From Beijerinckiaceae bacterium (GTDB lineage: Bacteria; Pseudomonadota; Alphaproteobacteria; Rhizobiales; Beijerinckiaceae): a stretch of DNA of 64,000 bases. A model generated the notes under the pieces. That model had not been told where the DNA came from. It saw only the letters and a program-made list of their open reading frames with translations, and did not search any database. The first letter of the stretch is position 1, and each line of letters starts with the position of its first letter. The position numbers and the translations under genes were made by a program. Positions 1 to 42,256 of this stretch are shown here, piece after piece. The stretch is taken from NCBI GenBank assembly GCA_947454485.1, contig CANGJJ010000003.1:1-64000 (forward strand), read 5' to 3'.

Positions 1-19
1 GGCTTTATCCTGATGGTCT

Positions 20-286
20 CGATCCCCTCATCAGTCAGCTCCGCTGACAGCTTCTCCCACTGGGAGAAGCGGGCGCCTCTTCTGTTGGGACAGCAGCAAC
101 CCCAGCGAACCCTTCTCCCATTGGGAGAAGCGGGTGCCTCTTCTGTTGGGACAGCAGCAACCCCAGCGAACCCTTCTCCCACTGGGAGAAGCGGGCGCCC
201 CTTCTGTTGGGACAGTAGAAACCCCAGCGAACCCTTCTCCCAATGGGAGAAGGTGCCGCCGGATGGCGGCGGATGAGGGGATCGGG
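20..286. repeat. Inverted pair of double-hairpin repeats (family A) with internal tandem copies
   Basis: The left end (20-69) has a GATCCCCTCAT tail, a stem GTCAGC (34-39)/GCTGAC (43-48), then the palindrome CTTCTCCCA-C-TGGGAGAAG (51-69). The right end (234-286) is the mirror image: palindrome 234-252, stem GCCGCC/GGCGGC, then GATGAGGGGATCGGG. The two ends therefore form a REPIN-like inverted pair. Between them the palindrome recurs at 112-130 and 173-191. The same two-hairpin design recurs at 2207-2262, 2488-2532, 2549-2603, 7544-7586 and 7687-7832. No protein signal is seen here. Confidence 0.85.
51..252. repeat. 61-bp tandem repeat, about 3.3 copies
   Basis: The palindrome CTTCTCCCA-N-TGGGAGAAG starts at 51, 112, 173 and 234, exactly 61 bp apart. 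Each copy is followed by nearly the same spacer (CGGGCGCC..., then TTGGGACAG and CCCCAGCGAACC). Only a few bases differ between copies. The array sits about 400 bp upstream of the first porin gene. Confidence 0.9.
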
Positions 287-647
287 TGTTGGTCGAGTGA
301 GGCACCACCCACCCTCAGCCCGAATCCACCAAGAGCCCCTCAGCTGGAATCACCTGCTCCTCTAATCGCGATATCGCGATAACCAGCCCAAAATGAGCAA
401 CCCCAATCCCCCGGCCCCTCAAAATTTTCGCATTCCTGTCCAGTTCAGCACGGGCTGGGCAATTTTGTTGCGGCCCCGCAACCGCCCCAGAAGAAGCGCC
501 GCGAACATTGCAATTGGCGTAGCAATACGAAACCGGATGATTACATTTCGACCACCTGCTGAGGTCACGCTCGTGTCCGAAGGCAGTTTCCAGGCACGGG
601 GGGCTGCGGCCCATCCATTTTGCCACGATTCATTTTTGGAGGTCATT
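287..647. other. Porin 1 leader region, no gene seen
   Basis: This stretch of about 360 bases lies between the repeat island and the first porin start codon. An open frame runs in from upstream in phase with the porin, but its translation looks non-coding and the signal peptide begins at 648. The region contains the 16-bp palindrome at 365-380. I could not assign a promoter with confidence. Confidence 0.5.
365..380. promoter_or_regulatory. Perfect 16-bp palindrome, possible operator
   Basis: ATCGCGATATCGCGAT is a perfect palindrome and also two tandem copies of ATCGCGAT. It lies 268 bp upstream of the porin 1 start codon, in a region without genes. A regulator-binding role is inference only. 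Confidence 0.35.
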
Positions 648-2072
648 ATGACGATTATGAAGAGCGCTTTGCTCGGCTCGGCTGCGGTGCTTGTTGCCGC
701 TGTCAGCGCGCAGGCTGCCGATCTTCCCTCGAAGAAGGCTGCACCTGCCACTTATGTGAAGATCTGCGACGCTTATGGCGCTGGCTTCTTCTACATCCCC
801 GGCACCGACACCTGCGTGAAGCTCGGCGGCTATGTCCGCGCTGAGTATCAGTATGTTCCGGCGCAGAACACCTATGACCGTTCGGGCGCCCTTCAGACTG
901 CCTCTGTTGCAAGCTCTTCGACCCCGAAGAACCTGCAGGACACGACCGGCTATGAAGTTCGTGGCCGTATCGATGTCGACGCCCGCACCCCCACGGCCAT
1001 GGGCGTGGCCCGCACCTTCATCCGTCTGCGCGGTGCCAATACCTCCGGCATCCGCAACACGGCCATCACGACCACCGGCTACAACATGTCGACGGCCTCC
1101 ACCTCGGGCATCACTGTTGAATCCGCTTCGGTTCAATGGGCTGGCTTCACCTTCGGTATCGCGCCTGAGAACTATTCAATGATGCCTTCGCATTTTTACA
1201 ATGCGAATCCTTGGTCGGGCTTCCCGAACGGCATGAAGCAGATTGCCTATACCGCCAATTTCGGTGGTGGCATCACTGCGACTGTGGCTTTGGAAGATCG
1301 TCGTGACCATGGTTACGGCGGCAACACGGTTCACACCGCATCGGCTGGCACGGATGTCGTCGCCAATCTGCGCCTTGATCAGTCTTGGGGCTTTGCAGCT
1401 GTCCACGGCCTGTGGGGCAACAATAGCTATTACACTGGTACAACGGGTCTTCCGATCATCAGCGGCACTGACTTTGCTGGCGTCGGTTCGACAGGCGCTG
1501 TCGACACCAAGAACAAGTCCTCTTACGCCATCGGCGCGACTGTGAACTACAAGCTGCCCATGATCGCCGCTGGTGATCAGGTGTGGTTCACCGCCAACTA
1601 TGCTGACGGTGCTCTCGGCATGTTGCTCTCTGACGGTGGCCTGTCCAACGTCAACTCGCCTGCCAACAAGCGCTTGATGGGCGGTCTGGTTCGTGTGGAC
1701 GCGAACCTTGTTCCCACCAACACTGGCACGGCTGCCGCTGTTGGCAACGTCAAGGGCTGGAACGTGGCTGGTGCCTTCACCCATTACTGGGCGGCTCAGT
1801 GGCGGTCTAACCTGAGCGCGGGCTATATCGAGTTCAACCCGCCGACACAGGGTCAGACCACTGCCATGGCTTGGGGCAAGGGTCAGTTGCAGGTCTATAC
1901 CGGCAGCTTGATCTATTCGCCTGCCAAGGACCTCGATATCGGTCTTGAGCTGCAATATGCCAGCTTGAAGAACAAGGTGCAGAACGCATCTTCGAACTTC
2001 GTTGCTGCTGGTTCGCCCGGCCTGAGCGAGAACAACATCAGCACGAAGCTGCGCGTCGAGCGCTCCTTCTAA
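648..2072 (+). CDS. Porin 1, Omp2-type outer membrane porin
   Basis: A 474-residue beta-barrel porin of the Porin_2 family, expected to form a trimeric diffusion channel in the outer membrane. A signal peptide occupies residues 1-23 (cleavage AQA/ADLP). The mature N-terminus has the family pattern: Cys40, an aromatic/glycine stretch, Cys56 and [12 protein letters not shown]. The protein ends in a C-terminal Phe, as outer-membrane barrels do. The start at 648 is chosen because GGAGGT lies just upstream and the signal peptide begins there, although the frame is open further upstream. It is the first of three tandem paralogues and is followed by a strong terminator (2103-2129), so it is probably transcribed alone. 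Confidence 0.93.
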
Positions 2073-2102
2073 TGAGCTAAGGACCTCTGGTCCAAAGCCT
2101 TG

Positions 2103-2129
2103 CCCCCGGTGCCTTGCACCGGGGGTTTT
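2103..2129 (+). terminator. Rho-independent terminator of porin 1
   Basis: The stem CCCCCGGTGC (2103-2112) pairs perfectly with GCACCGGGGG (2116-2125) around a 3-base loop and is followed by TTTT. It begins 31 bp after the porin stop codon. Confidence 0.88.
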
Positions 2130-2148
2130 GCGTTTCAGCCCGCGGCCC

Positions 2149-2262
2149 CTTCTCCCAATGGGAGAAGGGGGCCTCTTCTTTTTAGCGAGCACAAGCCTCA
2201 GCCACCCTTCTCCCAGTGGGAGAAGGTGCCCGCAGCGCGGGCGGATGAGGGGATCGGGTCTT
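2149..2262. repeat. Family A hairpin repeats
   Basis: An isolated palindrome CTTCTCCCA-A-TGGGAGAAG lies at 2149-2167. A full right-end element follows: palindrome 2207-2225, stem GCCCGC/GCGGGC, then GATGAGGGGATCGGG. Confidence 0.85.
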
Positions 2263-2281
2263 GGACGATAAAGGCGCGATC

Positions 2282-2306
2282 ACCCTCCCCTTGAGGGGGA
2301 GATGGG
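2282..2306. repeat. Family B hairpin, partial copy
   Basis: A partial copy of the second repeat family with core CCTCCCCTTGAGGGGGAG. Fuller copies are at 7856-7908 and 7973-8031. Confidence 0.65.
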
Positions 2307-2487
2307 GCGTTGCTCTTCCTGCAATTCCCACCCCCACATCATTTCGGGTCCGCCCCATCAAAGTGACCATAGGGCAACTTTTAAGCGCGCCTGCGCCGAT
2401 CCGGGTGCAAAAGCTCTGGGCAAAATGCTCAAGCTAGACTGTGCCCCTCATTGCCCCGCTCAAGATTATATATCTGTTTTTGCGAGC

Positions 2488-2603
2488 GCTCCCGCTGTGG
2501 GAGCTGTCAGCACAGCTGACTGATGAGGGGGGCGAGCCTGTGCCCGCATAGCTCCTCCCCTCATGGGCCGCCATCCGGCGGCACCCTCTCCCGCAGGGGA
2601 GGG
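2488..2603. repeat. Family A elements, two diverged copies in opposite orientation
   Basis: The first copy (2488-2532) has stems GCTCCC/GGGAGC and GTCAGC/GCTGAC followed by TGATGAGGGG. The second (2549-2603) is inverted: CCCCTCATG, stem GCCGCC (2567-2572)/GGCGGC (2577-2582), then CCCTCTCCC paired with GGGGAGGG. Stem sequences differ from other copies while pairing is kept. The island ends about 30 bp before porin 2. Confidence 0.75.
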
Positions 2604-2633
2604 CGAGCGGAGACTGCCGCGTGAGGGTGCTGA

Positions 2634-4097
2634 ATGAAACGCGCGACACGCGCCTTGTCTGTCGTTCTGACATCGCTCGCCGTCGTGATGGACGCGCGTG
2701 CGGCCCAATTGCCGTCGAGAAAAAAAGTCGATGCCGTGGCGGTGGGGCCCTGCGTCGATTATGGCCCCGGCTTTTTCTTCATTCCCGATCTGACGACCTG
2801 CGTGAAACTGGGCGGCAGTGTGCGCGCCGAGCTTCAATATGCGCCCGCGCGCGATATTTATGAGGTGAGCACGGGCGCGGTCAGAACTGACTATACATCG
2901 GTCTATAGTTCCTCGAGCGGCACGACGACACTCTATGCGCCGCGCAATTTTCAAGATGAGACCGGCTTCGACATGCGCGGCCGCATCAGTTTTGATAGCC
3001 GCACCGCAACCGATCTGGGTGATGCGCGCATGTTTGTGCGGCTACGCGCGGCAAGCTCTTCGGGTCTTTCCAACACGGCCATCGCCAATTCTTACGCCTA
3101 TTCCGCGGTCGGAGATCTTGCGACAGTGGCCGCCATCGAGGCGGCCATGGTGCAAGTGGCGAATTTCACCTTTGGCATCGCGCCTGAAAATTACGCCATG
3201 ATGCCGAGCTTCTTTTATCACGCCACGCCTTGGACAACTTTCGTCAATGGCGTGAAACAGATCTCTTATACGCAGCTGCTCGACTATGGCTTCTCCGCGA
3301 CCCTTGCGATGGAGGATCGACGCGATCATTTTTACGGAGGCAATGTCGCCCAAGCCAGTTTGAACGGGTCGAATTTCGTCGGCAATCTGCGTCTTGATCG
3401 CCCCTTCGGCTTTGTCGCGGCCCATATGTTGGTCGGCTTTAACAGCAATTATGTGAAATCAACCGGCGCTGCGCCAACCTCTTATGCGTCAGGCTTCACT
3501 GCGCTTGGCACATCAAGCGCGGTTGAGTCCAAAACCCATGGCGCCTTCGCACTGGGCCTCACTGGCAATGTCAAACTGCCAACGGGCGAGGGCGATCAGT
3601 TCTGGTTCACCACCAATTATGCCAATGGTGCTTTGGGCGCGCTGCTGTCAGATGGTGGCCTGTCCAATATCGGCACTTTGGGTACGCATCGCCTGCTCGG
3701 CGGCGTTGTGCGTCTGGATGCCAATCTCGTTCCCACCGCAAATTCATCTGCCGCTTCAGCCTCTGTAGAGAGTGTGTCGGGTCACAATTTCGCAGGCGCC
3801 GTCCTCCATCACTGGAGCCGGGAATGGCGCGCGCATATCAATGCTGGCTATATCGAAATGAATCCGCCCAAGCAGATTCAGACGGCGCAAACAGCCTGGG
3901 GGCGCGGGCGTTTATATGTGCTGACCTTGGGGCTGATCTATTCGCCTCTTCCCCAATTCGACATCGGCCTCGAAGTTCAGGCCGCGCGCATCCATAACCA
4001 ATTGCAAAACCCCACCACTGCTTTTCAGGCCGCTGGCATGCCCGGCCTGATGGACCAGAACATCTCCACCAAATTGCGCGCTGAGCGCAGCTTCTAA
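2634..4097 (+). CDS. Porin 2, Omp2-type outer membrane porin
   Basis: A 487-residue paralogue of porin 1. A signal peptide covers residues 1-23 (ARA/AQLP). The conserved N-terminal block PCVDYGPGFFFIP and TTCVKLGGSVRAEL holds both family cysteines. The C-terminal half (SDGGLSNI, HRLLGGVVRLDANLVPT, IEMNPPKQ, TKLRAERSF) aligns throughout with its neighbours. The start at 2634 places the signal peptide directly at the N-terminus; no strong Shine-Dalgarno sequence precedes it, so expression may be weaker than for porin 1. Pore selectivity cannot be read from the sequence. Confidence 0.9.
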   Translation: MKRATRALSVVLTSLAVVMDARAAQLPSRKKVDAVAVGPCVDYGPGFFFIPDLTTCVKLGGSVRAELQYAPARDIYEVSTGAVRTDYTSVYSSSSGTTTLYAPRNFQDETGFDMRGRISFDSRTATDLGDARMFVRLRAASSSGLSNTAIANSYAYSAVGDLATVAAIEAAMVQVANFTFGIAPENYAMMPSFFYHATPWTTFVNGVKQISYTQLLDYGFSATLAMEDRRDHFYGGNVAQASLNGSNFVGNLRLDRPFGFVAAHMLVGFNSNYVKSTGAAPTSYASGFTALGTSSAVESKTHGAFALGLTGNVKLPTGEGDQFWFTTNYANGALGALLSDGGLSNIGTLGTHRLLGGVVRLDANLVPTANSSAASASVESVSGHNFAGAVLHHWSREWRAHINAGYIEMNPPKQIQTAQTAWGRGRLYVLTLGLIYSPLPQFDIGLEVQAARIHNQLQNPTTAFQAAGMPGLMDQNISTKLRAERSF

Positions 4098-4275
4098 CGA
4101 GGCCCGACCTGCCGAAAGACTGTGGGCGGCGGCGCTTTGTCTCGAAACATCTATTGAAACATTTATTGTTTTTCAATAAACAATGAGTGTGACCGCATGC
4201 TGTCTTGCGGCAAAATTTCATCTGAGGCCCTCGGCGTTTTTTGCCGGATTTCGGGCCGTTGTTTTGGGGGTTATC
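4098..4275. other. Leader between porins 2 and 3
   Basis: 178 bp without a gene. It contains an AT-rich hairpin, TTTATTG (4162-4168) and CAATAAA (4174-4180), around five T. The low GC suits a promoter or leader better than a terminator, but neither is proven. The open frame that continues upstream of 4276 is unlikely to be translated. Confidence 0.4.
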
Positions 4276-5721
4276 ATGGCTATGGCCAAAGCCGATTGGT
4301 TTATTTTACCAGCAGTTTGCGTTGGTATTTTGTCGGGTGCCCAGTCGGCTGAATTGCCCTCTGCCAAAGCGGGGCCCGCCCGCTTGGCGCAAGTCTGCCG
4401 CGCTCATGGCGAGGGCTTTTTCTATCTGCCGGGATCGGACATTTGCCTGCGTCTGGGTGGCTCTGTGCGCGCTGAGTATCAATTCGTGCCGTCCAAGGTC
4501 AGTATTGATATCGCGACAGGCGCGCCCGCAGCAGCAATGGACTCCTCCAGCTCCAGCCTCAGCTATGTCTCGGATAAATTGCAGAGCACGACAGGCTTTG
4601 AGAGCCGCGCCGTTGTCGAGATAGATGCGCGCGCGCCAACCTCCATGGGCCTCGCCCGCACTTTGGTGCGCATGCGCGTGACGGCAAAGTCGGGTCTGGC
4701 GACGAGCGAAGGGGGCGCGAATGGCTATTCGGTGCGCTCTAACACCACTTCGGGTGTGAATAATGATGCCGCGATGGTGCAATGGGCCGGGCTGACTATG
4801 GGCCAGGGGCCGCAAAATTACGCGATGATGCCGCTGCATTTCTATCACGGCACGCCTTGGGCCAATTTCCAGAATGGCGTGAAGCAACTCGCTTATACCG
4901 CGCGCTTGGGCGATCAGGTGACGAGCACGCTCGCGCTGGAAGATCCGCGCGATCACATGCTGAGCGCCAGTCCACTCTTCAATGCGCCGCAATATGCCAA
5001 GCTCGTCGGCAATCTACGCTGGGATGGTGACTGGGGCTTTGCGGCCATTCACGGGCTTTTGGGCAAGCTTCCCTATTACATGCAAGCCACGGGCATAGTT
5101 CCCACCAGCAGCTCAAGTGGCGTGCTCGCGCTTGGCACCGCCTCGAGTGCAGATGCGGGCAGCAAGCTGGGATATGCATTGGGCGCGACCGCAAGCTTTC
5201 GCTTGCCGATGATTGCGCCGGGCGATCAGCTCTGGCTCACGATCAACCGCGCCAATGGCGAACTTTCTGCCATTCTCACCGATGGCATTCTGTCCAACAT
5301 CAGCAATTTCAACACGCATCGCTTGATGGGCGGTGTTGTGCGTTTCGATCCCAATATCATGCCAGTGATGGTGAAGGGCTATAACGCTGTCGAGACAGTG
5401 AATGCATGGAATGCGGCGGCCGCTTTCACCCATTATTGGGCGGCTGATTGGCGTTCCAATATCATGGCCGGCTATGTCGAGATCAATCCACCGCGCCAGA
5501 TGCAAACAACGGTCACGGCTTGGGGCAAAGGGCAGCTGCAGACCGCCGCCGCGAGCTTGATCTATTCGCCTGTGCGCGATTTCGATATCGGGCTCGAGCT
5601 TGAATATGGCCGCATCAAAAGCAGCGTTCAAAATCCAACAACTGCTTTCCTGAAAGCCGGTATGCCCGGACTGATGGAATCCAATATTTCAACCAAGCTG
5701 CGTGTTGAGCGCAATTTCTGA
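4276..5721 (+). CDS. Porin 3, Omp2-type outer membrane porin
   Basis: A 481-residue third tandem porin. The signal peptide is residues 1-25 (AQSA/ELP). The mature protein starts with the family block VCRAHGEGFFYLPGSDIC and LRLGGSVRAEYQF. Conserved tracts shared with the neighbours include [50 protein letters not shown] and the final [12 protein letters not shown]. The start at 4276 has a G-rich ribosome site (GGGGGG) and gives a clean signal peptide. The second and third porins share features such as MPGLM near the end, suggesting stepwise duplication. Confidence 0.9.
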   Translation: MAMAKADWFILPAVCVGILSGAQSAELPSAKAGPARLAQVCRAHGEGFFYLPGSDICLRLGGSVRAEYQFVPSKVSIDIATGAPAAAMDSSSSSLSYVSDKLQSTTGFESRAVVEIDARAPTSMGLARTLVRMRVTAKSGLATSEGGANGYSVRSNTTSGVNNDAAMVQWAGLTMGQGPQNYAMMPLHFYHGTPWANFQNGVKQLAYTARLGDQVTSTLALEDPRDHMLSASPLFNAPQYAKLVGNLRWDGDWGFAAIHGLLGKLPYYMQATGIVPTSSSSGVLALGTASSADAGSKLGYALGATASFRLPMIAPGDQLWLTINRANGELSAILTDGILSNISNFNTHRLMGGVVRFDPNIMPVMVKGYNAVETVNAWNAAAAFTHYWAADWRSNIMAGYVEINPPRQMQTTVTAWGKGQLQTAAASLIYSPVRDFDIGLELEYGRIKSSVQNPTTAFLKAGMPGLMESNISTKLRVERNF

Positions 5722-5772
5722 TTTTCGTCGTGTCTTTTTCTCAAGTTTTTCATCATTCATTCGGAGCAGCCG

Positions 5773-6240
5773 ATGGATCAGCCTCATCATCTGACGACCC
5801 TGTGCCTGCAAGTTCAGGGCGGCTTCGGGCGGCTTGCGAATTTTGCGCAAGAGCATGACCTGTCCTTCTCGCTCACTGCCTTTTTCGTCCTTGTCGGCAG
5901 TTTGAATATTCGCCCCCACGCCACCGGCATGATCTTCGAGCCTGTCTCCCCGGCGGTGATCGCCAAAGCCGCGCATATGGAGCCCAAGACCGTGTCGCGT
6001 TGGTGCTCGCAACTCACCGAGGCGGGGCTCATGCGCCGCCACCGCGCCGCCTATGCGGTGGAGCCCATCGCCGATTGGTATGCATTGGCGGGCTGCTTTG
6101 GCATGACGCCGCCCTCATTGGCGCCCCCTCTTGCTTCACCGGCCGCAAGCCCGCCGCTACAGGCCCCGAGTTTTGACGCTCTGGATCAAGCCCCCGTGCA
6201 GCCGATCTTCGATAGCGAGTGCCTCAATCAGTTCGCTTGA
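5773..6240 (+). CDS. Small winged-helix-like protein, possible regulator
   Basis: 155 residues, not assigned to a named family. Residues about 40-95 (VSPAVIAKAAHMEPKTVSRW, then CSQLTEAGLMRR) look like a MarR/GntR-type winged helix: a helix, a turn, a recognition helix with TVSRW, then a wing. The tail from about 110 is Pro/Ala-rich and probably disordered. The start at 5773 has GGAG six bases upstream. It lies 51 bp after porin 3 on the same strand and could be co-transcribed with it. A role in controlling the porins is only suggested by position. Confidence 0.7.
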   Translation: MDQPHHLTTLCLQVQGGFGRLANFAQEHDLSFSLTAFFVLVGSLNIRPHATGMIFEPVSPAVIAKAAHMEPKTVSRWCSQLTEAGLMRRHRAAYAVEPIADWYALAGCFGMTPPSLAPPLASPAASPPLQAPSFDALDQAPVQPIFDSECLNQFA

Positions 6241-6290
6241 GGGCGGGGCGGTCTGCTTGGACAGATTCGTGCTACACTTGGCCGAATCCC

Positions 6291-7259
6291 ATGAGCGCCT
6301 CAGTCCACCCATCCCTCTCCGTTGAAGTCGGCCTCACCGCCGCCATTGTGGCGGTGCGCGATGACGACCCGGTGATTCTTGTGGCCCCCGGCCCGGCAGG
6401 CTCCGAGCCCGCCTTGCCCTCCGGCCCCTTCGATCCGCTGCATCACCGCACCTTTGAGATCGGTCTGCGCTCCTGGGTGGCAGACCAGACGGGCGCGCCG
6501 CTGGGCTATGTCGAGCAGCTCTATACATTCGGCGATCGGGGCCGCCATGCGCAGGCAGGCGACCGCGATCCGCATGTGGTCTCGGTCGGTTATCTGGCTT
6601 TGACGCGCGGCGGGGCGGCCTTGTCTGCGGGCGCGAGCTTCCGGCCTTGGTATGGCTTCTTCCCTTGGGAGGATTGGCGCGCGGGCAAACCTGCGATGAT
6701 TGAGGCGCGTATTCTCCCCGCCTTGCGCAAATGGGCGGCGCGCGATCCTGACCGTCTCAATGCCTATGGCCTGTCGCGCACCGAGCGCGTGCGCATGTTG
6801 TTTGGCGAAGACGGGCGCTTTGATGATGAGAATGCGCTTGATCGTTTTCAGCTGCTCTATGAGTCAGGCCTTGTGGAAGAGGCGCGCCGGGATGGCAGAG
6901 CCAGTCCGCTGATTGGCGAAGTCGGCCCGCTGGGCGAGCCTATGCACAATGACCACCGCCGCATTCTGGCAACCGCGATGGGGCGTCTGCGCGCCAAGAT
7001 CAAATATCGTCCGGTGATTTTCGAATTGATGACCGAGACATTCACTTTGACCGCGCTGCAGCGCACGGCAGAGGCGATCTCGGGTCGTCATTTGCACAAG
7101 CAGAATTTTCGCCGACTGGTGGAATCCTCTGCGGTTGTGGAACCCACCGGTGAGATGTCGCATGCCACAGGCGGGCGCCCCGCTGCGTTGTTCCGCTTCC
7201 GCCGCGATGTTCTGCAAGAGCGCCCCGCACCGGGCCTGCGTGTGGGTTCGCGCGGCTGA
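6291..7259 (+). CDS. nadQ: NUDIX-like NAD regulator (NadQ/COG4111-like)
   Basis: 322 residues resembling the alphaproteobacterial NAD-metabolism regulator (COG4111), in which a NUDIX-like ligand-binding domain is joined to a winged helix. The N-terminal part (about 10-165) has the NUDIX-like opening VEVGLTAAIVAVRDDDPVIL but lacks a recognisable catalytic NUDIX box, as expected of a sensor. The C-terminal part (about 215-310; KIKYRPVIFELM, FTLTALQRTAEA, KQNFRRLVESS) is the NrtR-like winged helix. In relatives it controls NAD synthesis genes; none is visible here. The start at 6291 removes an unlikely upstream extension. The gene symbol is my best match, not certain. Confidence 0.75.
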   Translation: MSASVHPSLSVEVGLTAAIVAVRDDDPVILVAPGPAGSEPALPSGPFDPLHHRTFEIGLRSWVADQTGAPLGYVEQLYTFGDRGRHAQAGDRDPHVVSVGYLALTRGGAALSAGASFRPWYGFFPWEDWRAGKPAMIEARILPALRKWAARDPDRLNAYGLSRTERVRMLFGEDGRFDDENALDRFQLLYESGLVEEARRDGRASPLIGEVGPLGEPMHNDHRRILATAMGRLRAKIKYRPVIFELMTETFTLTALQRTAEAISGRHLHKQNFRRLVESSAVVEPTGEMSHATGGRPAALFRFRRDVLQERPAPGLRVGSRG

Positions 7260-7292
7260 GCCGAAATTGAGATGAGATCAAACGAGGTTGAG

Positions 7293-7538
7293 ATGAGCGA
7301 TCAGGCAACAGAGGTTTCGAAACTGACATTTGAAGCCGCGCTGAGCGAGCTGGAGACCATCGTCAGCAGTCTCGAAAAAGGGCAGGTGGCTTTAGAGGAA
7401 TCCGTCAAGCTCTATGAGCGCGGGGAGCGCCTGAAAGCCCATTGCGAAGCGCTGCTGAAAAGTGCTGAAGCGCGGATCGAAAAAATCACACTCGGCAGCG
7501 ACGGTCAGCCCAAGGGGACAGAGCCGCTCGATATGTGA
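7293..7538 (+). CDS. xseB: Exodeoxyribonuclease VII small subunit
   Basis: 81 residues, the usual length of XseB. It partners XseA to degrade single-stranded DNA in both directions. The conserved core is [20 protein letters not shown], then [15 protein letters not shown] and [15 protein letters not shown], which form two amphipathic helices. The start at 7293 (MSDQ) is preferred over an in-frame ATG 21 bases upstream because GAGG lies six bases ahead. A terminator follows at 7600-7626. In many Rhizobiales xseB lies beside a deacetylase gene and dxs; here the deacetylase is 39 kb away. Confidence 0.92.
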
Positions 7539-7543
7539 GCGCA

Positions 7544-7586
7544 CTTCTCCCAATGGGAGATGGTGCCCGCCGCTGAGGGGATCGGG
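7544..7586. repeat. Family A element, degenerate copy
   Basis: The palindrome CTTCTCCCAATGGGAGATG has one mismatch. The second stem is collapsed (GCCCGC without its partner) and is followed by TGAGGGGATCGGG. Confidence 0.75.
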
Positions 7587-7599
7587 AGTTTGTTGAAAG

Positions 7600-7626
7600 A
7601 GGCGCAGCGTGAGTTGCGCCTTTTTT
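7600..7626 (+). terminator. Rho-independent terminator after xseB
   Basis: The stem AGGCGCA (7600-7606) pairs with TGCGCCT (7615-7621) and is followed by five T. Confidence 0.85.
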
Positions 7627-7627
7627 G

Positions 7628-7667
7628 TTAGGCGCGATCCACCCTCCCCCTCAAGGGGAAGGTGGCG
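7628..7667. repeat. Family B core hairpin
   Basis: A copy of the family B palindromic core, ACCCTCCCCCTCAAGGGGAAGGT, split here as CCTCCCCCT and CAAGGGGAAGG. It lacks the second hairpin seen in the copies at 7856 and 7973. Confidence 0.65.
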
Positions 7668-7686
7668 CTCCTCATCCTGCACCTTG

Positions 7687-7832
7687 CGATCCCCTCCTCA
7701 GTCGGTATCCACCGACAGCTCCTCCCACTGGGAGGAGCGGGCGCCTCTTCTTTTTAAATTGCAGCAAGCGCTGATTACCCTTCTCCCAGTGGGAGAAGGT
7801 GCCCGCGGATGCGGGCGGATGAGGGGATCGGG
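7687..7832. repeat. Family A inverted pair (REPIN-like), complete
   Basis: The left element (7687-7736) has GATCCCCTCCTC, stem GTCGGT (7701-7706)/ACCGAC (7711-7716), then CTCCTCCCA-C-TGGGAGGAG. The right element has palindrome 7780-7798, stem GCCCGC (7801-7806)/GCGGGC (7811-7816), then GATGAGGGGATCGG. Compared with 20-286, several stem bases change on both sides together, which indicates selection or replication through structure. Confidence 0.88.
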
Positions 7833-7855
7833 TCGGAAACAATAAGGGCACGAAC

Positions 7856-8031
7856 CCACCCTCCCCTTGAGGGGGAGGGTCGGCGCACGCAGTGCGACGG
7901 GGTGGGGTGGCACGGCTCGCGCAAGCGAGCACAACAAAAGCCTGGCCCATGTCACGCGCGCTATCTCGCGCTCACCCCATCCCGTCATCGCTTCGCGATG
8001 CCGACCTTCCCCCTCAAGGGGAAGGTGGGGT
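7856..8031. repeat. Family B inverted pair of double hairpins
   Basis: The left copy (7856-7908) has a palindromic core ACCCTCCCC/GGGGAGGGT, then stem CGCAC-GCA-GTGCG, then GGGGTGGGG. The right copy (7973-8031, inverted) has core ACCTTCCCC/GGGGAAGGT and stem CATCGC/GCGATG. The two copies differ by paired, compensatory changes. About 64 bp of single-copy DNA lies between them. Confidence 0.82.
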
Positions 8032-38103: not shown

Positions 38104-38227
38104 ACACATTTCCCAAAGCCTTTATGGGGGGTTCACGCGGCGGGCATGATAAGAAACAATCATAGCGGCAAAGCCCACTGATTTGCCGAGTCAGCAAAGA
38201 GCCTGTCAGGTGACGACCGATAGCGAA

Positions 38228-41200
38228 ATGGACGGGCAACATAACGCGGGTGCTGACGTGGTCGGCGCTCCGCTGCCTCTTGCTGCAACGCCGCGGGCCA
38301 TTCTGCATGGTGATCAGCGCCCCGATCTGTTGCGCGACGAATTGCTCTGCGAAATATTTGGCGCCAGCGCGAGCCTGCATCCCAACGCGCCCTGCATGCA
38401 GACCAAAGAGGGCATGCTCACTTATGAGCAAGTCGACGACCAAGCCACCGCCATTGCGCGCGGTCTGGTGCGGGAAGGTATTCGCCCCGGTGATGTGGTC
38501 GGTCTGTGGATGCCGCGCGGTCATGAACTGCTGATCGCACAAATCGCCATCACCAAAACGGGCGCAGCCTGGCTGCCCTTTGATTCAGATGCACCGGTCG
38601 AGCGCATCGCAGTCTGTCTGAATGATGCCAAAGCCAAAGCTTTGCTGACGGGCGCGGCGCAAGTGGCCGCTGTTGAAGGCCGCGTCAATTGCGATGTGCT
38701 CACGCGAGCTATGTTGGTCAATACGTCCGACCGATCCATCGTCAATCCGCGCGCCATGGGCGCGACGCAAAATTCCGTCGCCTATATGATCTATACGTCG
38801 GGCTCGACCGGCGTGCCCAAAGGCATTGTCATTTCCCAGCGCAATATCTGTCACTATCTGCGCGCTTCGAATGAGATCTACAAACTCGATGCGCGCGATG
38901 TCGTCTTTCAGGGCGCCTCGGTCGCATTCGACTTGTCGATGGAAGAGATCTGGGTGCCTTATCTTGTGGGCGCCTGTCTCTTCGTTGCCAATCCCGCCAT
39001 CATGGCGGAGGTGGATCGTCTGCCAGATGTGCTCGAAGAAGCCGGTGTCACCGTGCTCGACACTGTGCCCACTTTGCTCTCCATGCTGCCGCGCGATGTG
39101 GCCAGTCTGCGCGTGATCATTCTGGGTGGTGAAGCCTGCCCGCCCTCTGTCGCCTCGCGCTGGTGTCGTCCCGGCCGCACCATCTTCAATGGCTATGGCC
39201 CGACCGAAATCACGGTGGTGGCAACCATTGCTGAAGTGCGCGTGGGCGAGCCCGTCACGATTGGTGCGCCCATTCCCAATTACAGCTGTTATGTTGCCGA
39301 TGACGCTTTGAACCTTGTTGAACAGGGCGTCGAAGGCGAATTGCTGGTCGGTGGTCCGGGCGTCGCGCAAGGTTATCTTAATCGCGCTGAGCTCACGGCC
39401 GATAAGTTCATCGCCAATCCTTACAGCAGCGATGGGCGCGATCCGGTTCTCTATCGCACTGGTGATGCGGTGGCGCTCGATCACAAAGGCGAGTTGATCT
39501 TTCGTGGCCGCATTGATGATCAGGTCAAGATCCGCGGGTTCCGTGTGGAATTGGGTGAGATTGAATCGCGACTGACGGAGCAGTCCGGCATCGCGCAAGC
39601 CACCGTCGTTCTGCGTCAAGACAATGGTATCGACCAGCTCGTCGCTTTCATGACGAGCGAGAGCGGCGATATTGATGCGCGCGCTTTGCGCACCGCGCTG
39701 CGACAATCTTTGCCAGCCTATATGGTGCCAGCGCGCTATGAACTGGTGCAAGAACTGCCGCGCCTGCCTTCGGGCAAGGTCAATCGCAATGTGCTCAAAA
39801 CGCAGCCACTCAGCGCAGAGTCCGATATTCTCGAAGAGCAAGAAGAGCCGCGCACGCAAACCGAAGCCAAATTGTTGGAGGCAGCGAAAGCCGTTCTGCC
39901 ACCGCAGCCCATTCCCTTCGATGCGGATTTCTTCACCGATCTTGGTGGCCACTCACTGCTCGCCGCGCGCTTTCTGGCTCTTGTGCGCATGCACCATGAA
40001 TTGTCCTCGCTGACGCTGCAGGATGTCTATGAGAAGCGCAGTCTGCGCGCCATGGGCGAATTGCTCGAGGGCCGCGCTGTTCATATGGCAGCGCCGCGCG
40101 ATCTGTCCTTTGAGCCGCCGCCCTTACTGCGTCGCTTCTTCTGCGGCTTGGCGCAGGCCATCGTCCTGCCCTTCATTCTGGCTTTGATGACGGCGCAATG
40201 GCTGGGCGTCTTCATCAGCTATATGTTGCTGACCGATGCTGCGGCCTCGCTGCTGCAAGAGGTCGTCACGCTTCTGGGCGTTTATCTGTTCATCAATGTC
40301 GTCACAGTTCTTTTGTGCATCTCACTCAAATGGATTGTGCTGGGGCGTTCCAAGCCCGGCCGCTATCCGCTGTGGGGTGCTTATTACTTTCGCTGGTGGT
40401 TCACGCAGCGTTTGATGGGTCTGCTGCATCTGAAATGGTTTCAGGGCTCACCCGTCATGCGCATTTTGATGCGCGCTCTTGGCACGCGGATCGGCAGCGA
40501 TGCCTTCATTGGTGAGGTGGAGTGGGGCGCCGCCGATCTTGTGACCATTGGTGCAGGCGTCAATATTGCCTCCAAGGTCAAATTTGCCAATGCGCGCGTC
40601 GAAGGCAATGAGCTGATCATTGGCACGATCGTCATCGGTGATGATGCTTATATTGGTACGTCCTGTGTCATCGAAGAGGGTGTTGTGATGGGGCAGAGCG
40701 CGGAGATCCGCGACCTGACCTCCTTGCCCGCTGGCACACAGATCGCGGCGGCTGAGATTTGGGATGGTTCACCCGCCAAGAAGATCGGCATGGTTGATGT
40801 GGCGAGCTTGCCCGAACAGGCACAGGCCTCGCCATTGCGCCGCGCTGTGCAGACTGTGATCTATACATTGTTGTTGCTTGTCGTGCCGCCGATTGGTTTG
40901 CTGCCCATCTTCCCGGCCTTCTCTGTTTTTGATCGCATCGACGAATGGCTCGGCCTTGTTGATGTGGATCGCACGCTCTATCTGGCTTCGATTCCCTTGA
41001 TGGCTTGGCCCACCGCTTTTGCCCTTGTCATCATCACAGTCGTGTTGGTGGCGGCTGTCCGCTGGATTGTTCTGCCGTGCGTCAACCAAGGCGTCTATTC
41101 AGTTCACTCCTGGTTCTATCTGCGCAAATGGAGCGTGGCGCTGGCGATTGAAGTCACGCTCGAGACTCTCTCCTCGCTCTTTGCCACTGTCTATATGCGC

Positions 41201-42256
41201 AACTGGTATCGCTTGATGGGCGCGAAGATTGGCAAAGATGCCGAGATCTCGACCAATCTGGCAGGCCGCTATGATCTCGTTGAGATTGGCGAGAAATGTT
41301 TTATCGCGGACGAAGTTGTGCTCGGCGACGAAGATGTGCGTCGCGGTTATATGTATCTTGAGCCCGTGAAGACGGGCGCGCGCGTCTTCATCGGCAATGA
41401 TGGTGTCGTGCCGATTGGGTCCGACATCCCCACCGGCGCGCTCATCGGCATCAAGTCCAAGCCACCGGCCAATCATCTGATGTCGCCCGGCGACACATGG
41501 TTTGGCTCGCCGCCAATCAAACTGCCGGTGCGCCAGAAATTCGATGCAGGTGGCCATTGGACCTATGAGCCACCGAAGTGGAAGAAATTCATGCGCGGCC
41601 TGTTCGAGGCGGTGCATATTTCCTTGCCCACCATGCTCTATATCACCTTCGGCACCTGGGCCGTTGAAGTGCTCGCCCCACCGCTGCTGGAAGGCGATTG
41701 GGACTTGCTCTTCGTGCTCTTTCTTGCAGCCTCGCTCAGCATCTCCCTTGCGATGGCGGCTGTGGTCATCGCCGTCAAATGGCTGACCATGGGGCGCTAT
41801 GAACCCGTTGTGCGCCCGATGTGGTCCTTTTGGGCCATGCGCACCGAGGCGGTGGCGGTCATGTATTGGGGCCTTGCCGGGCGTGTGCTGCTGGAGCATC
41901 TGCGCGGCACGCCCTTCTTGCCTTGGGTGCTGCGCCTCTTTGGCGCCAAATTCGGCAAGGGCGTGTGGATGGAGATGACGGACATCACCGAATTCGATTG
42001 CGTGAGCGTGGGCGATTATGCTGCCCTGAATTCGCTCTGCGCCCTCCAGACCCATCTTTATGAGGACCGGGTGATGAAGGTCGGCCGGGTCCATGTGGAG
42101 CGCGGCGTCACGGTGGGGGCGGGCTCAACCGTGCTCTATGACACGCATGTGGGCGAATTTGCCCGGCTCGGCCCGCTCACCGTCATTATGAAGGGCGAGG
42201 CCATCCCCGCCCATACCGAATGGGTCGGGGCCCCGGCGGAGCCCCGCAGCATTTGA
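38228..42256 (+). CDS. Pls/PosA-type NRPS-like protein with triplicated membrane/beta-helix module
   Basis: 1342 residues from the ATG at 38228; GTG 38210 and TTG 38183 in the same frame are alternative starts. Domains: adenylation (about 45-545; A3 motif YTSGSTGVPKG at 189-199, A7 YRTGD, A10 PSGKVNR), a carrier domain with the pantetheine Ser at about 576 (GGHSLLAARF), then no condensation or thioesterase domain. The rest is three repeats of membrane helices plus left-handed beta-helix (about 744-840, 997-1090 and 1240-1342). This is the plan of the TIGR02353 Pls/PosA family, some of which make polylysine-type polymers. The substrate amino acid cannot be read here. It lies 52 bp before aroC. 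Confidence 0.9.
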   Translation: MDGQHNAGADVVGAPLPLAATPRAILHGDQRPDLLRDELLCEIFGASASLHPNAPCMQTKEGMLTYEQVDDQATAIARGLVREGIRPGDVVGLWMPRGHELLIAQIAITKTGAAWLPFDSDAPVERIAVCLNDAKAKALLTGAAQVAAVEGRVNCDVLTRAMLVNTSDRSIVNPRAMGATQNSVAYMIYTSGSTGVPKGIVISQRNICHYLRASNEIYKLDARDVVFQGASVAFDLSMEEIWVPYLVGACLFVANPAIMAEVDRLPDVLEEAGVTVLDTVPTLLSMLPRDVASLRVIILGGEACPPSVASRWCRPGRTIFNGYGPTEITVVATIAEVRVGEPVTIGAPIPNYSCYVADDALNLVEQGVEGELLVGGPGVAQGYLNRAELTADKFIANPYSSDGRDPVLYRTGDAVALDHKGELIFRGRIDDQVKIRGFRVELGEIESRLTEQSGIAQATVVLRQDNGIDQLVAFMTSESGDIDARALRTALRQSLPAYMVPARYELVQELPRLPSGKVNRNVLKTQPLSAESDILEEQEEPRTQTEAKLLEAAKAVLPPQPIPFDADFFTDLGGHSLLAARFLALVRMHHELSSLTLQDVYEKRSLRAMGELLEGRAVHMAAPRDLSFEPPPLLRRFFCGLAQAIVLPFILALMTAQWLGVFISYMLLTDAAASLLQEVVTLLGVYLFINVVTVLLCISLKWIVLGRSKPGRYPLWGAYYFRWWFTQRLMGLLHLKWFQGSPVMRILMRALGTRIGSDAFIGEVEWGAADLVTIGAGVNIASKVKFANARVEGNELIIGTIVIGDDAYIGTSCVIEEGVVMGQSAEIRDLTSLPAGTQIAAAEIWDGSPAKKIGMVDVASLPEQAQASPLRRAVQTVIYTLLLLVVPPIGLLPIFPAFSVFDRIDEWLGLVDVDRTLYLASIPLMAWPTAFALVIITVVLVAAVRWIVLPCVNQGVYSVHSWFYLRKWSVALAIEVTLETLSSLFATVYMRNWYRLMGAKIGKDAEISTNLAGRYDLVEIGEKCFIADEVVLGDEDVRRGYMYLEPVKTGARVFIGNDGVVPIGSDIPTGALIGIKSKPPANHLMSPGDTWFGSPPIKLPVRQKFDAGGHWTYEPPKWKKFMRGLFEAVHISLPTMLYITFGTWAVEVLAPPLLEGDWDLLFVLFLAASLSISLAMAAVVIAVKWLTMGRYEPVVRPMWSFWAMRTEAVAVMYWGLAGRVLLEHLRGTPFLPWVLRLFGAKFGKGVWMEMTDITEFDCVSVGDYAALNSLCALQTHLYEDRVMKVGRVHVERGVTVGAGSTVLYDTHVGEFARLGPLTVIMKGEAIPAHTEWVGAPAEPRSI

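Follow-up and report, generated by a model that had tools for sequence, protein, structure and literature searches.

An asymmetric, probably non-autonomous hairpin element dispersed through the genome of a Beijerinckiaceae bacterium

Results

The window considered here, comprising the 64,000 nucleotides at the start of contig CANGJJ010000003.1 (contig C3) of the Beijerinckiaceae bacterium assembly GCA_947454485.1, opens with a set of hairpin repeats that fall into two families, A and B. Three successive Porin_2 genes occupy positions 648–5721, with family A units between the first two, and copies are found also in the gap between xseB and coxM; both families are present where an earlier note, made from the letters of the window alone, had placed them. 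Eight family A arms lie within 14–7836, and one family B pair is located at 7855–8029. The source genome is a 3.29-Mb draft in 20 contigs, with a completeness of 98.6%. Family A is probably a non-autonomous miniature element with two different ends, akin to repetitive extragenic palindrome (REP) doublets forming hairpins (REPINs), bacterial interspersed mosaic elements (BIMEs) and Rhizobium-specific intergenic mosaic elements (RIMEs), that seems to be lost by joining within its terminal hairpins and may spread in bursts without a REP-associated tyrosine transposase (RAYT).

Arms of family A, each consisting of a first hairpin (hp1), a second hairpin (hp2) and a tail, were counted at E ≤ 1e-6 with a covariance model (R1) derived from 24 of them; family B arms were scored with a second model, R2. 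A genome-wide count of copies, set as a test beforehand, returned 118 family A arms (115 distinct) in 51 clusters, far beyond the window; thus, the placing of copies around the porins and in the xseB–coxM gap describes the window, where all R1 matches fall within 14–7836, but not the genome. Thirty clusters have two arms, ten have three, six are single arms, four have four and one has six. The end of contig C1 (locus L054) matches the start of C3 (window 1–130) in 119 of 120 bases, so that these figures probably count one beta arm (see below for arm classes), and also one cluster, twice; the overlap also indicates that the assembly broke inside a family A array, the 61-bp repeats of which may be present in the wrong copy number. 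Contigs C8, C16 and C18 also begin or finish near family A arms. Chance hairpins were ruled out as the origin of the family, the hairpin pattern (with up to three mismatches) occurring at 132 places in the genome as opposed to one for a reversed control.

The arms form two classes, alpha (outer hp1 pair C–G; n = 63) and beta (G–C; n = 55), four arms with a damaged outer pair having been assigned by their tails. Mean identity is 88.5% within alpha and 89.8% within beta, but 75.7% between the two. All 67 pairs of neighbouring arms less than 300 bp apart join alpha with beta, and never like with like; 49 are tail-to-tail, 17 head-to-head and one, with a gap of 222, in the same direction. Tail-to-tail gaps are mostly 35–39 nucleotides (others being 6–7, 55–65, 90, 210 and 218), while 16 of the 17 head-to-head gaps are 33–34 nucleotides, the remaining one, of 156, lying in the window and containing two solo copies of hp1. 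The invariable pairing of unlike arms and the regularity of the head-to-head gaps show that the unit runs alpha–middle–beta and is repeated via a linker. Family A is, therefore, an asymmetric tail-to-tail alpha–beta element of about 160 bp (36 of the 49 tail-to-tail units span 150–165 bp), sometimes in tandem via a linker of 33–34 nucleotides that starts GGGYGCCTCTTCTTTT. Hence the inverted pairs described previously were confirmed but are of two kinds, those at 14–290 and 7681–7836 being head-to-head junctions between units.

Within the window, the series begins with a reverse-strand beta arm (14–73, with hp1 at 51–69), which forms the right end of a unit truncated where the contig begins. 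Inspection revealed two solo hp1 hairpins, at 112–130 and 173–191, within a tandem repeat of 61 bp made up of hp1 and linker, both chimeric, with an alpha-like left half, a beta-like right half and a C.C outer mismatch; a forward alpha arm follows at 230–290. The next group comprises a solo hp1 with a C–G outer pair (2149–2167), a forward alpha arm (2203–2262) and, 20 nucleotides past it, a forward B hp1-like hairpin (2283–2303, a pattern match with two mismatches), together with a degenerate forward beta arm (2485–2540, 42 bits with R1) and a degenerate reverse alpha arm (2548–2606, 38.5 bits) placed tail-to-tail with it at a gap of 7. The last group starts with a degenerate forward alpha arm from which hp2 is mostly missing (7540–7590, 38.7 bits), the partner of which is a reverse beta arm at 7681–7741, with a solo reverse B hp1 in the middle of this unit (7642–7662). 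A 34-nucleotide head-to-head linker (7742–7775) joins it to a second unit, represented by a forward alpha arm (7776–7836), the beta arm of which was not found. The B pair begins 18 nucleotides past this arm, and consists of R2 matches with the two stems reported earlier, CGCAC/GTGCG on the forward strand (7855–7912) and CATCGC/GCGATG in its tail-to-tail partner on the reverse strand (7970–8029).

The middles of family A units often contain a third hairpin (for example AGGCGCAG/CTGTGC, AGGCTC/GAGCCT or GAGGCAC/GTGCCT), which at loci L062 and L079 has a T run after it; this third stem is not universal, since many of the other middles fold at different places. In six longer units a B hp1-like hairpin, degenerate in one case, occupies the position of the third hairpin, and the middle of the 7540 unit combines a B hp1 with a terminator-like hairpin. 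Full B pairs are found inside two units and in the 7776 unit of the window, and these three are all that the genome holds: R2 returned 18 matches at E ≤ 0.01, comprising six strong ones (at least 72.8 bits, the three pairs) and 12 weak ones (at most 36.6 bits). The pair in the window is, then, as had been described, but B as an independent family in the source genome was ruled out, because its full pairs are all nested in family A units. Among 21 genomes of the genus, B arms were detected at E ≤ 1e-5 in ten, with 88 in the sister species G079, where B is amplified and no family A arm was found at E ≤ 1e-6, 16 in G062, 13 in G074 and two to seven in the others.

The context of the clusters was derived from a home-made gene call based on codon scores, with 160 gene pairs from the same DNA as controls. 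Twenty-seven of the 51 clusters are in convergent gaps, 16 in unidirectional and three in divergent ones, with five at an edge, as opposed to 16 convergent, 119 unidirectional and 25 divergent control pairs (p = 7e-12); the convergent preference is evident also against 52 control gaps longer than 60 bp (p = 6e-7). Five clusters overlap a called frame, and several copies lie within about 15 nucleotides of a called stop codon. No orientation bias relative to the genes was seen, alpha being upstream in three of nine two-arm unidirectional clusters. Nor did a Pfam scan of 86 of the 92 flanking proteins picked reveal a shared neighbour gene, the commonest family (Cupin_2) occurring in five; of the 177 families matched, the 25 most frequent include no transposase. 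Nine left edges of arrays, out of 36 (L051, L056, L057, L059, L060, L063, L066, L073 and L081) follow a hairpin with a fold energy of −11.7 or lower and a T run within 50 nucleotides, i.e. at these edges the units would, judging from the sequence, sit just after a host terminator.

All four family A stems noted earlier (GTCAGC/GCTGAC, GTCGGT/ACCGAC, GCCCGC/GCGGGC and GCCGCC/GGCGGC) were found. Measured on an alignment fitted to the structure of the model, 97.7% of stem cells over the 118 arms (115 distinct rows) are paired, compared with 86.4% in shuffled and at most 64.2% in slid controls. Nine of the 15 stem pairs vary on both sides, against a shuffled mean of 4.8, with none of 500 shuffles reaching nine, and column pair 31–42 occurs as all four Watson–Crick types (CG 44, AU 30, GC 30, UA 4). 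Much of the covariation separates the two inherited arm classes; part remains within them, two-sided change being present at pairs 31–42 and 32–41 in alpha and 7–23 and 31–42 in beta. Covariation in excess of the controls was thereby established, although to call it direct evidence of a conserved fold was slightly too strong, given the inherited classes and the scope for templated repair. Mismatches on the strand read number 16 G.U and five A.C. Folded with RNA parameters, the 36 real units examined have a mean energy of −90.9 kcal/mol, compared with −68.5 for the local hairpins alone and −147.8 for hypothetical alpha–alpha dimers. Heterodimers have been proposed to escape palindrome cleavage (PMC3733652), with which the computed energy gap agrees, as a consistency only.

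Since hp1 is palindromic, its copies at either end of a unit repeat each other in both direct and inverted orientation. The source DNA examined contains 127 hp1 copies, 13 of which are solo, i.e. outside arms. A C.C outer pair, combining an alpha left half with a beta right half, is present in six of the 13 solo copies but in only one of the 118 arms (Fisher p = 2e-6, a value that is overstated because the solos at 112 and 173 of the window are near-identical tandem copies). A seventh solo copy (L048) shows the pattern on its other strand, and that at L067 joins CTTC (alpha) to GGAG (beta).

Full and solo hp1 states were found also at a single intergenic site on p42e-type plasmids of Rhizobium, for which 136 records matched, 22 were examined and 21 were placed in a tree, Rhizobium sp. 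Kim5 being omitted on account of an IS5-family gene within one of its hp1 copies. Eight of the 21 are full, nine solo and four neither (one truncated, one without a hairpin and two with another palindromic repeat), and the full/solo labels switch at least four times on starred branches, or five times by parsimony. Strains WSM1689 and leg9B share an element that is 98.0% identical over 102 positions, the best match of WSM1689 among seven others (the next best being 96.1%), and on starred branches they enclose the solos leg248 and Tp73, the solo hp1 of which has GGGCAGAAG of the WSM1689 right hp1. This pattern is most simply read as a loss in which the join fell within hp1, a reading with counter-evidence considered below. 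The IS5-family gene of Kim5 (L257, 1640–2890) lies inside one end hp1 of a RIME-like pair, and comparable insertion sequence entry into REPs has been reported (PMC1525189). At this intergenic site, which separates two ABC genes, a different palindromic repeat is found in R. etli CIAT 652 and R. lentis (L248 and L284), suggesting a possible hot spot.

The distribution of family A is patchy. At E ≤ 1e-6 arms were detected in 12 of the 21 genomes of the genus, with 118 in the source, 26–41 in six others and two to nine in five; G028, which is 99% complete and which, of the genomes in the genus, gave the longest match at one locus (79% over 3.8 kb), has none at this threshold. Wider scans, with up to 90 candidates scored per genome at family level (E ≤ 1e-4) and up to 36 at order level, so that arm counts are lower bounds, revealed arms in 40 of 60 family genomes and in 43 of 150 order genomes from 19 families. 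The units of relatives that were inspected mostly keep the layout, often with different ends and with sequences of their own. A-like arms occur also in Rhizobium, Methylosinus, Azospirillum and one Xanthomonas sacchari plasmid, NZ_CP010410.1, where they form a tandem array (L243, 1460–1760) in a gammaproteobacterium. No unit was seen at one family A site in four same-genus genomes, or at a second site in one. Searches by tblastn with xseB, the porins and the gene at 6291 near coxM gave no match at 1e-6 in 80 relatives' loci, many of them short, hence there was no orthologous gap to compare; nine of these loci contain A arms (15 matches, E ≤ 0.001).

A search of the source genome for PF01797 (Y1_Tnp), the single transposase family sought genome-wide, gave no match; as a positive control, matches were obtained in five of 14 genomes, and E. 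coli has a Y1_Tnp gene. Y1_Tnp is present in five of the 21 genus genomes, but in none of the eight that are A- or B-rich, source included (Fisher p = 0.11; completeness 58–100%). In the family it is found in 10 of 60 genomes, with no link to family A (two of the 17 genomes that have 20 arms or more, eight of 43 others; p = 0.71), and in the order in 24 of 150 (22 over the cut-off), again with no link (six of 43 A-positive and 18 of 107 A-negative genomes; p = 0.81). The ten Y1_Tnp loci scanned, one per positive family genome, have no family A arm, the best R1 match being E 0.055. Genome G009, which is a single contig and 100% complete, carries at least 83 A-type matches and no Y1_Tnp. RAYT-driven movement of family A is, therefore, not supported, and the earlier likening to REPINs holds for inverted, covarying, intergenic hairpin pairs but not for their mobilisation.

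Family A appears to resemble the RIMEs, large palindromic intergenic repeats of Rhizobiales. A copy on R. etli p42e, presumably what Osteras called a RIME, matches R1 with both arms (E 6e-7 and 4e-4); RIMEs were reportedly described by Osteras in 1995. Distinctive here are the strict alpha and beta ends, the middle hairpin and the nested B. In the BIMEs of E. coli, units of two types alternate in inverted orientation with spacers of fixed length, a description that family A fits (67 of 67 pairs unlike, 16 of 17 head-to-head gaps 33–34 nucleotides), but its sequence differs, its hairpins are doubled and E. coli has a Y1_Tnp gene. In S. meliloti, RIME and Sm repeats (PMC2245857), AB and C motifs besides these (PMC2573895) and transcribed REP elements (PMC2873474) have been described, and two Bradyrhizobium repeats are found at 3′ ends, of which Br-REP1 differs in sequence from family A (PMC5082802). 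REPINs with a RAYT (PMC3116915) likewise comprise inverted hairpin pairs in intergenic DNA, are excised, and have singlets interpreted as remnants; family A differs in that each arm has two hairpins, the ends are unlike, a RAYT was not found and loss would leave a chimeric solo. The inverted hairpin pair as a unit is thus shared (49 of 67 pairs tail-to-tail), but no RAYT gene was found in the genome, nor any A arm at the ten Y1_Tnp loci of relatives. Family A also has points in common with the GTAG and CGTC REPs (PMC3733652), alphaproteobacterial palindromes in which heterodimers are common and convergent or unidirectional gaps preferred, the CGTC kind being described as lacking a dedicated transposase. 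However, by inspection the A arms have neither a GTAG nor a CGTC tag, nor the 8–9 bp stem starting with AT pairs and CCA tail of CGTC REPs, and B arms have CCCGTC beside hp2 but stems of 5–6 bp not starting with AT. Rfam models gave only sub-threshold matches, mostly to miRNA, taken as artefacts of long inverted repeats, and a literal literature search with four arm words of 10 to 11 bases returned nothing on bacterial repeats among the matches listed (title or start of abstract). Family A is best filed with RIME/BIME-like non-autonomous repeats without a RAYT match, and as such is notable but not unprecedented.

Discussion

Units of family A seem to be lost when the hp1 palindromes at their two ends become joined, which would leave one solo hp1; the chimeric solo hairpins of the source genome and the Rhizobium locus support this. 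Beyond this, whole units may spread in lineage-specific bursts, driven perhaps by a trans activity other than RAYT, or by recombination or replication errors at the hairpins. The different ends could persist because two like ends would make a long, near-perfect palindrome, and copies may be kept at the 3′ ends of genes because hairpins do no harm in that position or are of use, as in forming mRNA 3′ ends or in termination. Several points weigh against this account. No mobiliser can be named, and the independence of alpha and beta hp2 subtypes within units (chi-squared p = 0.30, 38 units) does not favour spread as unbroken units. Elements shared by both members at two orthologous loci, with 88–89% identity, suggest that copies may be old, and same-genus gaps are too diverged for junctions, or for duplications such as mark the target sites of miniature inverted-repeat transposable elements (MITEs), to be read, so that no insertion was seen directly. 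Full and solo labels in Rhizobium are no more clustered than when shuffled (162 of 500 shuffles gave as low a value), some of the changes could instead reflect genes exchanged between strains, and the marker change GGGCAG occurs also in a solo of R. bangladeshense, which is distant on the tree and outside the R. leguminosarum group. With regard to the fold, kinship among sequences can beat such shuffles without structure, template switching or hairpin-templated repair can create paired changes without selection, and a G.A mismatch at columns 29–44 is kept in 18 of 63 alpha arms.

That last mismatch bears on the view that the covariation arose by template switching within hairpins rather than by selection on the fold. 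Quasi-palindrome correction is a familiar process, and one-sided intermediates are few save in one alpha subtype, but that G.A subtype stays uncorrected, and we regard the explanation as somewhat unlikely. The solo hp1 might, conversely, be the target that the element enters, with the solo state ancestral and the full state derived. Full and solo states share a junction inside hp1, so their anatomy gives no direction, and the GGGCAG solo of R. bangladeshense accords with this order of events; the frequent alpha-left, beta-right C.C composition of solos in the source, and the position of leg248 and Tp73 between two strains with an almost identical element, make it unlikely nonetheless.

It is similarly doubtful that these are immobile, ordinary RNA hairpins or terminators of gene 3′ ends, held by selection and spread by rare recombination. 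The strong preference for convergent gaps, the terminator-like middles with T runs of some units, such as L062 and L079, the copies near stop codons and the excess of G.U over A.C mismatches would all suit such a role, but not the contrast between 118 arms in the source and none in G028, the recurrence of alpha–beta units of fixed layout, or the failure to see an orientation bias in nine clusters. REPINs moved by a RAYT that has since been lost after a burst, or that lies in unassembled DNA, would account for the architecture, and Y1_Tnp does occur in the family and genus; given its absence from the source, from the A- or B-rich genus genomes and from the complete, A-rich G009, the ten Y1 loci without an A arm and the want of association over 60 or 150 genomes, this origin seems improbable. 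More speculatively, and with some reserve, family A could feasibly belong to a widespread alphaproteobacterial REPIN-like class that amplifies in lineage-specific bursts without RAYT, its terminal palindromes serving as recombination sites for loss, and perhaps gain, under an unrecognised enzyme.

REPINs are thought to depend on RAYTs, some alphaproteobacterial palindromic repeats, the CGTC REPs, being a stated exception (PMC3733652). Here, a single genus includes A-rich species and one B-rich species, none of them with a RAYT match, as well as others with few copies or none, and such contrasts make the search for a mobiliser testable by comparison of gene content. The chimeric solo hairpins, for their part, constitute a readable record of loss, and account for part of the mosaic appearance of the intergenic DNA.

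Other genes of the window

The coxM protein has its best relatives in Beijerinckiaceae and Rhizobiales metagenome-assembled genomes (82% at the amino acid level). An open frame of 1357 residues at 38183–42256 combines an AMP-binding domain, a carrier-protein site and a hexapeptide-repeat region.

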